Assembly (NCBI GenBank): GCA_026996295.1
Contig: JALWLL010000065.1
Coordinates: 1 to 42,413, forward strand
DNA: 42,413 bases
DNA from: Sulfurimonas sp.
Lineage (GTDB): Bacteria; Campylobacterota; Campylobacteria; Campylobacterales; Sulfurimonadaceae
Reading direction: 5' to 3'
The notes beneath the pieces were generated by a model that searched no databases, was not told the DNA's origin, and saw only the letters and a program-made list of their open reading frames with translations. How positions within the stretch are numbered: the stretch's first letter is position 1; each line of letters starts with the position of its first letter. The translations under genes and the position numbers were made by a program. Positions 30,871 to 33,780 of this stretch are shown here, piece after piece.

Positions 30871-31488
30871 TTATATTTTTATACTTTCCCAGAAGAAATC
30901 TACATGTTTTTCAAATTGAGTTGAGAGATTATTAGTAGATAATGAGTCAAATCGCAATAGTGTTACCTGTAGTCTGATGTAGAATAGGGTAGATAAAAAC
31001 TCATAGGAAATAATCATAGGATCGTTGGATCGAATAAGTGAGTTTTGCATCATAATAAAAAAACCTTCCGATAGAATAGCTATATTTTTATCATGAAAAT
31101 AACTTATAAACTGCTCTCTTAGCTCTTTATTTTGCAGTAACTCTATAAGAAGTATTCTGAACATACTTTCGTTGTTCTTATCAAATGTAAGAAGCTTATA
31201 TTGCATGGCAAAATTCTGTAAAAAAACCTTTCCTTTCAATGCATTTTCTCTAATATCATCACTGTTAAAAGAGAAGGGCGATGTAAAGATCTCACGTGCT
31301 ACTTCTAAAAAGATCTCCTCTTTATTTTTAAAATGATTATAAAGAGCACTCTCTCTAATACCAACTTGTGAAGCTATTTTTCTTACACTTGTGCCTTTGT
31401 AACCATGCTCAGAGAAGAGGGCTTTAGACTCTTTGAGTATTTTGGCTTTTGTGCCGACTCTTTTGTGTATCGTCGTATTTTCGGGCAT
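30871..31488 (-). CDS. TetR-family transcriptional repressor
   Basis: A 205-residue regulator with a canonical TetR N-terminus: KILKESKALFSEHGYKGTSVRKIASQVGIRESALYNHFKNKEEIF (outline; residues about 17-60), containing the helix-turn-helix. The remaining helices form an effector domain I cannot assign. It has AAAGG as RBS at 31500-31496 (minus). Unlike most TetR genes it has no adjacent efflux pump or enzyme; the divergent neighbour is rnpB. Four palindromic operators lie immediately upstream, two of them around its likely promoter, so autorepression is expected. Its other targets are unknown. Confidence 0.88.
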   Translation of the reverse strand: MPENTTIHKRVGTKAKILKESKALFSEHGYKGTSVRKIASQVGIRESALYNHFKNKEEIFLEVAREIFTSPFSFNSDDIRENALKGKVFLQNFAMQYKLLTFDKNNESMFRILLIELLQNKELREQFISYFHDKNIAILSEGFFIMMQNSLIRSNDPMIISYEFLSTLFYIRLQVTLLRFDSLSTNNLSTQFEKHVDFFWESIKI

Positions 31489-31509: not shown

Positions 31510-31619
31510 TGAACAAATGTTAACTATCCTAGAAGTATATATGAACACTTGTTAATCTATGCTTAACTGTTAGTGAACGATTGTTCACACAAAAGCATTG
31601 CAATATGAACATATGTTCA
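31510..31619. promoter_or_regulatory. Array of four TetR-type operators at exact 32-bp spacing
   Basis: Four 14-bp near-palindromes: TGAACAAATGTTAA (31510-31523), TGAACACTTGTTAA (31542-31555), TGAACGATTGTTCA (31574-31587) and TGAACATATGTTCA (31606-31619). Their starts are exactly 32, 32 and 32 bp apart, about three helical turns. Sites 3 and 4 are perfect dyads (16 bp with flanks GTGAAC...GTTCAC and ATGAAC...GTTCAT). Sites 1 and 2 flank a possible minus-strand -10 TATACT (31539-31534) of tetR. TGAAC-N4-GTTCA is a known type of TetR-family site, so the adjacent regulator is the likely ligand. Confidence 0.8.
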
Positions 31620-31661: not shown

Positions 31662-31666
31662 TACAC

Positions 31667-31985
31667 AGGTACAACAGATAGTGACTTGATTTTCAAGAGG
31701 AAAGTCCGGGCTGCTGTAAGACAATGTTCCATTTAACTAATGGCCGTAGTAATACGAGGGAAAGTGCAACAGAAAATAGACTTTTATCCATTGGATAATA
31801 AAGGTGAAAAGGTGGTGTAAGAGACCACCAGTCTTTATAGCAATATAAAGAGCTTGTAAACCCAACATGGCAGCAAGAAACAAATGGTTAGAGTCTTACG
31901 ATGCTATTGTTTCGCTAGAGGTACTATGTAAATTGTGCACTAGATTAATGCTATCAAAACAAAACCCGGCTTATGTTGTGCCTGA
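31667..31985 (+). ncRNA. rnpB: RNase P RNA, bacterial type A
   Basis: Catalytic RNA that removes 5' leaders from pre-tRNA. The conserved 5' core GAGGAAAGTCCGGGCTGC (from about 31702) and the 3' core AAAACCCGGCTTAT match the universal P4 halves. The middle has GGTGAAAAGGTGGTGTAAGAG with pairing GACCACCAG, and AAGTGCAACAGAAA. The P1 helix is formed by AGGTACAACA (31667-31676) and TGTTGTGCCT (31974-31983), with one G-U pair, which sets the ends. It is transcribed divergently from tetR. No clear terminator follows before the next gene. Confidence 0.93.
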
Positions 31986-32083
31986 CTCAGGGTATGCCTA
32001 CTTATTTTCAAGAGAATTTACATTATGTTAACCAATATAGATCTCTTATCTTCCTCTTACACCTTTTAGTATATAATATGGCT

Positions 32084-33150: not shown

Positions 33151-33195
33151 AAGCAATGTTGTTTTGTGTTATTATGTTTGTTGCCAAAATATTTG

Positions 33196-33201
33196 TATAA
33201 T
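33196..33201 (+). promoter_or_regulatory. -10 box of the response-regulator gene
   Basis: TATAAT in TTTGTATAATTACAG, 33 bp before the ATG at 33235. Because it lies downstream of an open ATG at 33166, it rules that longer start out. AGGA at 33222-33225 is the RBS. Confidence 0.6.
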
Positions 33202-33234
33202 TACAGTCAAATTTCATTATTAGGATATTGGTTT

Positions 33235-33780
33235 ATGGCAAATATAGATTTAGTTCAGCTCACTGGACAAACAAAAAGACTTACTTCGATGATTGTTGAA
33301 GATGAAAAAGTAACAAACGAGCTTTTGAGTTCAACGTTTAAGAACTTTTTTTCTGATGTGCATTCTTACTTTAATGCAGAAGAAGCACTTGAAGCATACA
33401 ATAAAATTCAACCGGATGTTGTTTTTGTTGATATAGTTATGGCTGGAATGGATGGTATTGAGCTTTCTCGTAAGATTCGTGAGATCAATCCAAATCAAAT
33501 CATTATAGTTATTTCTGCTAGTAATGATATAGAAAAAATCTCTCAGTCTATTGAGGTTGGTGTTAATAGTTTTATCCAAAAACCTATTGATACGAAAAAA
33601 ATCATAGAACTTCTGACAAACCTTATCTCTATGATAACTAAAAAGAAAAAAATAGAAACAAAAACTTTCTCTATCTCTCTTCCTTTAGATCTTTACGAAG
33701 TTGTCAACGACAATGCTAAAGCTGAAAGTATTTCAAAAAATGCAGTGATCATCAGAGCACTACGCAATTTTTACGAATAG
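33235..33780 (+). CDS. Response regulator with C-terminal ribbon-helix-helix-like domain
   Basis: 181-residue two-domain protein. The receiver (about 14-132) is complete: E22/D23, phosphoacceptor D66 (VVFVDIVMAGMDG), S94 (VISAS) and K116 (QKPID). A Lys-rich linker (ITKKKKIETK) leads to residues 144-181, FSISLPLDLYEVVNDN...SISKNAVIIRALRNFY. This reads as one beta-strand and two helices, as in CopG/Arc ribbon-helix-helix DNA-binding proteins. RHH is not one of the common response-regulator outputs. No histidine kinase is next to it, so it is an orphan regulator. The RHH call is from pattern and could be a short dimerisation element instead. Confidence 0.78.
   Translation: MANIDLVQLTGQTKRLTSMIVEDEKVTNELLSSTFKNFFSDVHSYFNAEEALEAYNKIQPDVVFVDIVMAGMDGIELSRKIREINPNQIIIVISASNDIEKISQSIEVGVNSFIQKPIDTKKIIELLTNLISMITKKKKIETKTFSISLPLDLYEVVNDNAKAESISKNAVIIRALRNFYE

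Follow-up and report, generated by a model that had tools for sequence, protein, structure and literature searches.

The window analysed here is a stretch of 42,413 nucleotides from Sulfurimonas sp. (contig JALWLL010000065.1). At its centre of interest, a TetR-family gene on the reverse strand and the RNase P RNA gene rnpB on the forward strand are separated by four 14-bp palindromes, and a XerCD-type dif site lies just past rnpB, 390 bp from the palindrome array. At dif, the completed chromosomes of a bacterium are parted. The features are as follows.

30871-31488, reverse strand: tetR, TetR-family protein of 205 aa (Pfam TetR_N, PF00440, 5e-16)
31510-31523: operator site 1, tetR-proximal, TGAACAAATGTTAA, conserved in relatives
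31534-31539, reverse strand: probable tetR -10, TATACT (TATAAT in the genus consensus), a conserved spacer block
31542-31555: operator site 2, TGAACACTTGTTAA, between the probable tetR -10 and -35
31561-31566, reverse strand: probable tetR -35-like element, TTAAGC, with the conserved TAAGC block of spacer 2
31574-31587: operator site 3, TGAACGATTGTTCA, perfect palindrome
31606-31619: operator site 4, TGAACATATGTTCA, perfect palindrome
31666-31988, forward strand: rnpB, RNase P RNA, class A (Rfam RF00010, 227.6 bits, 8e-73)
32006-32033, forward strand: dif, XerCD type, 28 bp, TTTCAAGAGAA (XerC arm), TTTACA (centre), TTATGTTAACC (XerD arm)

The four sites are separated by three steps of exactly 32 bp each. 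The exact motif occurred four times in the window, compared with a mean of 0.13 (maximum 2) in 400 dinucleotide-matched simulated versions of it, where it was never found twice within 200 bp. The first-pass annotation of this DNA had placed the four sites and their three 32-bp steps correctly, had recognized the two sites distal to tetR (sites 3 and 4) as perfect palindromes, and had named the flanking genes in agreement with the profile searches (TetR_N, 5e-16; RF00010, 8e-73). It had overlooked that a dif site lies 390 bp from the array and that the locus is at the terminus of the chromosome.

Each of the 30 loci from the genus that were looked at first had the array upstream of tetR (29 with four sites, one with three), with successive steps of 32, 31-32 and 32 bp. 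Among 80 further fetched loci it was present upstream of tetR in 79 (four sites in 70, five in 6, three in 3, none in 1), and 232 of the 240 listed steps measured 31-33 bp. The comparison with relatives, which had been set beforehand as a possible refutation, therefore left sites and spacing standing. At the genome level, 78 of the 100 genomes from the genus had the paired-site pattern, nearly always at the tetR locus alone, while the reversed-pattern control was near zero. Mean information per column reached 1.5-1.6 bits in the sites, 0.9 in the spacers and 0.5-0.6 in the flanks; conservation covers the sites but not the greater part of the spacer sequence, and the array is clearly constrained.

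Overall, the array precedes an orthologous tetR in at least six of the order's families (f1, f3, f4, f6, f10 and f18), with steps of 22/22/22 or 32-33 bp in f18, 33/31/22 or 32/32 bp in f4, 33/33 bp in f10 and f3, and 42-43 bp in f6. Within the genus, a gain or loss of about one turn is rare (43/31/32 in L268 and L295), and one locus (L257) had an extra site 22 bp away. The spacing is thus quantised in helical turns, with 22, 31-33 and 42-43 bp corresponding to two, three and four turns. As whole turns are kept while the absolute distance varies, assembly on one face of the DNA is supported, and these steps lend weight to the earlier suggestion that a multi-site same-face array may be bound cooperatively. 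In one genome (G085, locus L094), rnpB is preceded by two array-like sites lying far apart, which may be a disrupted array.

The tetR product, for which the name "dif-associated TetR" is a label used here only, possessed the N-terminal TetR_N helix-turn-helix (PF00440, E = 5e-16) and reached no equivalog cut-off in the NCBIfam profile search. Its orthologues were 71-80% identical across the genus, and the TetR tree grouped by family, as expected from vertical inheritance. The AlphaFold model contained ten helices with a mean pLDDT of only 69, and the best Foldseek matches of this low-confidence model were TetR-type regulators, generic matches that gave no functional clue.

A conserved TATAAT lies between sites 1 and 2 and a conserved TAAGC block, which may be read as a -35 box, lies past site 2, so that site 2 falls between the two and the putative promoter is interleaved with sites 1 and 2. 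With these conserved spacer blocks taken as the two boxes of the tetR promoter, on either side of site 2, autorepression of tetR is likely, and autoregulation appears well supported by the promoter geometry. The earlier proposal that the array controls the dose of tetR fits the same geometry. TetR-family proteins commonly autoregulate, and as the array overlaps the predicted tetR promoter, autoregulation alone could explain the existence of the array.

A scan of the window for canonical dif gave a moderate score only (23 of 30), and the dif block was accepted only after its conservation, near-unique copy number and published match had been established. It is a single noncoding near-palindrome with a conserved XerD arm, near the GC-skew maximum. 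In relatives, the conserved block stood downstream of rnpB at distances that differed, between non-conserved flanks; it was usually present as a single exact copy per genome and mostly 0.4-2 kb from the array. The window dif differed by one base from the published S. denitrificans dif (PMC2731167). The dif positions of G083 (1,122,264 on a chromosome of 2,201,561 bp), G364 (1,186,929 of 2,562,277 bp) and G149 (1,001,399 of 1,877,931 bp) also agreed with published ones, and the dif or difH sites that the paper gives for S. denitrificans, Sulfurovum NBC37-1 and Nitratiruptor SB155-2 are those found here. The window's genome encoded two XerC/XerD-like recombinases (271 aa and 296 aa) with full-length matches below the curated cut-offs.

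Across the fetched loci, the median distance from array to dif was 562 bp. A dif site was found in 51 of the 64 loci having enough upstream sequence, and its orientation relative to tetR was the same in 56 of 56 loci. A dif near the array was present in families f6 and f10 too; the 14 kb read at two f6 loci (L244 and L245) contained none. As the distance in XerCD lineages varied from 43 bp to 3.5 kb (0.04-2 kb in nearly all), no tight array-dif complex is required. One MAG (G074) carried two tetR-array-dif loci on different contigs (L078 and L079), each array about 1 kb or less from its own dif, which probably reflects two strains in the bin.

The arrays of families f4 and f18 have tetR on one side and the gene for the recombinase XerH on the other. 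This recombinase matched H. pylori XerH over its full length (PDB 5jjv, E = 7e-103, residues 1-347) and was 68% identical between G039 and G053. In the nine f4 and f18 loci read across the junction, the difH palindrome was found 49-91 bp from the nearest array site, in one orientation; the phase between difH and the array was weak, with no strong phase found. Within the genus of the window, difH searches returned chance-level matches only. Two XerH-type genomes (G044, locus L122, and G055, locus L123) were without a TetR orthologue at the search threshold, and G044 kept a difH-like site beside xerH.

Positions were calculated from dnaA on seven chromosomes with exact lengths. The array was found at 0.466, 0.508, 0.507, 0.530 and 0.494 of the chromosome (G011, G012, G030, G031 and G009, respectively), and tetR at 0.46 (G039) and 0.49 (G053). 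In further complete genomes of f1, f4, f6 and f18 the array was mostly at 0.46-0.55, provided that these records begin close to the origin. The cumulative GC-skew peak was 12.5 kb from the array in G011 and 25 kb in G031, and 66 kb and 49 kb, respectively, from the exact midpoint. The array is thus near the replication terminus in all complete chromosomes with a mapped origin. Within about 5 kb, tetR was the only gene family present in 23 of 23 loci from five families, the next being xerH with 8. That the array-dif pairing outlasts the change of every other neighbour suggests a new protein marker of the chromosome end point.

Other targets of the motif were also searched. In the window's genome, the stringent motif was confined to the array. 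Off-array single TGAACRNNYGTTMA matches exceeded the reversed-pattern control in five genomes (G005, G083, G108, G165 and G225), and some of the matches lay near oriC. Of the 22 matches inspected, 20 fell within coding sequence, several of them in one and the same dehydrogenase gene, and a second regulon was rejected on this basis, the excess over the control being not fully explained.

The sequence itself shows a conserved, phased array of four sites adjoining dif or difH, a fixed side and dif orientation, a position at the terminus, and a tetR promoter interleaved with sites 1 and 2. The reading favoured for these features, with a probability of roughly 0.5, is that an autoregulated TetR builds a one-faced nucleoprotein patch that would mark dif and ter, in the manner of MatP, ZapT or RefZ. 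A dedicated TetR-family protein would repress its own gene, and its dimers would bind all four sites cooperatively. Four sites on the same face would yield a compact protein-DNA assembly covering about 110 bp next to dif at the replication terminus, and the bound patch could have a positional job there, for instance as an anchor or landmark at ter/dif for use by the divisome, FtsK or the Xer machinery. Stated more broadly, and only tentatively, the locus may be a Campylobacterota terminus-marking complex in which an autoregulated TetR and a phased four-site array stay by dif independently of whether XerCD or XerH is used, a functional counterpart of MatP and ZapT derived from the TetR fold.

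Alternatively, the protein could be a pure autorepressor and small-molecule sensor, the four phased sites providing a steep tetR switch and the dif neighbourhood being inherited by chance. The promoter interleaved with sites 1 and 2, the general habit of TetR-family proteins and the lack of any other evident target are in line with this account. It is nevertheless rather unlikely, as an autorepressor needs neither four same-face sites nor a fixed place, and the adjacency to dif was kept across five families and two Xer systems while all other neighbours changed. Autoregulation could account for the existence of the array, but not for its staying by dif.

A role in Xer recombination, with the array controlling xerH transcription or serving as accessory DNA for dif/difH synapsis like ArgR/PepA at plasmid cer, would suit the f4 and f18 loci, where the array lies between tetR and xerH, 49-91 bp from difH. 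Such a role is improbable given that in XerCD lineages both recombinase genes were on other contigs, that the array-dif distance ranged from 43 bp to 3.5 kb, and that no strong phase linked difH to the array. Chromosomal dif is normally controlled by FtsK.

Mobile elements have integrated at dif in the genus, as judged from half-dif sites with a replaced XerD arm (L332 at 6879 and 17487; L333 at 3579 with L334 at 5828; L273, L299, L302 and L311). In G114 and G103, an element was found in dif, leaving a half-site beside the array and an intact dif about 10.6 kb and about 98 kb off, respectively. Such insertions partly account for the apparent distance exceptions; in G002, G069 and G104, the array was 12-80 kb from dif and no half-site was seen. 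The array itself could in principle be the remnant cargo of an element once inserted at dif, but this is very improbable, because the loci read had no second dif on the other flank of tetR, the TetR tree matches the family grouping and the array is clearly constrained.

The first-pass annotation had also raised the possibility that control by the array reaches rnpB. While rnpB is the next transcript past site 4 in most genus genomes, this reading is scarcely credible: 47 bp separate the end of site 4 from the 5' end of rnpB, the spacing between array and rnpB is not constant, differing by up to about 17 bp, f4, f6 and f18 retain the array although their rnpB has another location, and G023, G065, G071 and G088 have rnpB but no array. 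Beyond this genus, in other families too, the neighbour of the array on that side is a lipoprotein gene, xerH, kdsB or another gene. As other families have rnpB elsewhere, control of rnpB is not supported, and within the genus rnpB is a bystander between array and dif. The multi-site same-face array and its link to tetR dose are therefore retained from the earlier interpretation, and rnpB control is dropped as the main role.

Some genus genomes were without both tetR and the array: G088 kept oorC-rnpB-dif (L328, 7758-8800) without tetR or sites, and G023, G065 and G071 kept oorC-rnpB. Natural losses of this kind were also noted at L089, L092 and L093. The gene and its sites are thus dispensable, and appear to have been lost together, so that these lineages offer natural controls. 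In several array-negative genomes the absence of the array is uninformative, because dif is close to a contig end.

Among known systems, MatP-matS of enteric bacteria also combines a protein with DNA sites marking ter, but has a different fold, and matS sites are spread through ter. The MatP domain (PF06303) was found in none of seven genomes, the window's own included, with a positive E. coli control. RefZ of Bacillus is likewise a TetR-family protein with near-palindromic sites (RBMs) at conserved chromosomal positions (PMC6657595), but its RBMs occur singly, at five places on the arms and close to oriC, whereas here one phased four-site array lies at dif, interleaved with the promoter of the protein's own gene, and off-array matches were mostly coding. 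The TetR scored 44.4 bits against the RefZ equivalog cut-off of 180 in NCBIfam. SlmA of E. coli is a TetR-family nucleoid protein acting through chromosomal position, with several SBSs that are richer near the origin (PMC4117426), in contrast to the single terminus array; here the score was 30.5 bits against a cut-off of 120. By these tests, the TetR does not belong to the RefZ, SlmA or MatP families. ZapT of Caulobacter is a ter-biased DNA-binding protein that couples ter to the Z-ring; unlike the TetR, it is discussed with MerR-family proteins, and no consensus motif was found for it, its sites being mostly inside ORFs (PMC7188993). By analogy, a positional role for the TetR would have precedents in the TetR-fold proteins RefZ (PMC6657595) and SlmA (PMC4117426) and in the ter couplers MatP and ZapT (PMC7188993).

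The available text of PMC2731167 describes the epsilon-proteobacterial dif as lacking any apparent specific genetic environment and does not mention a TetR array, and no paper linking a TetR array to dif was found in the literature searched. A dif-associated phased TetR array is thus the better description of the locus, and is apparently unreported. With one gene, four sites and dif, a small locus that is kept together under two different Xer systems makes the coupling of terminus and division in bacteria other than enterics and Caulobacter directly testable, and the two-, three- and four-turn spacings across families provide a natural experiment on same-face cooperative assembly.

In addition, a small response-regulator-like protein (VxLTxQTKKLTxMIVEDEKVTNELLSS) recurred near dif in the family, also in array-less genomes; it was located at 33166-33780 in the window, and at 8130-8675 in L226, 5273-5821 in L232, 6836-7375 in L326 and 6437-6979 in L329.
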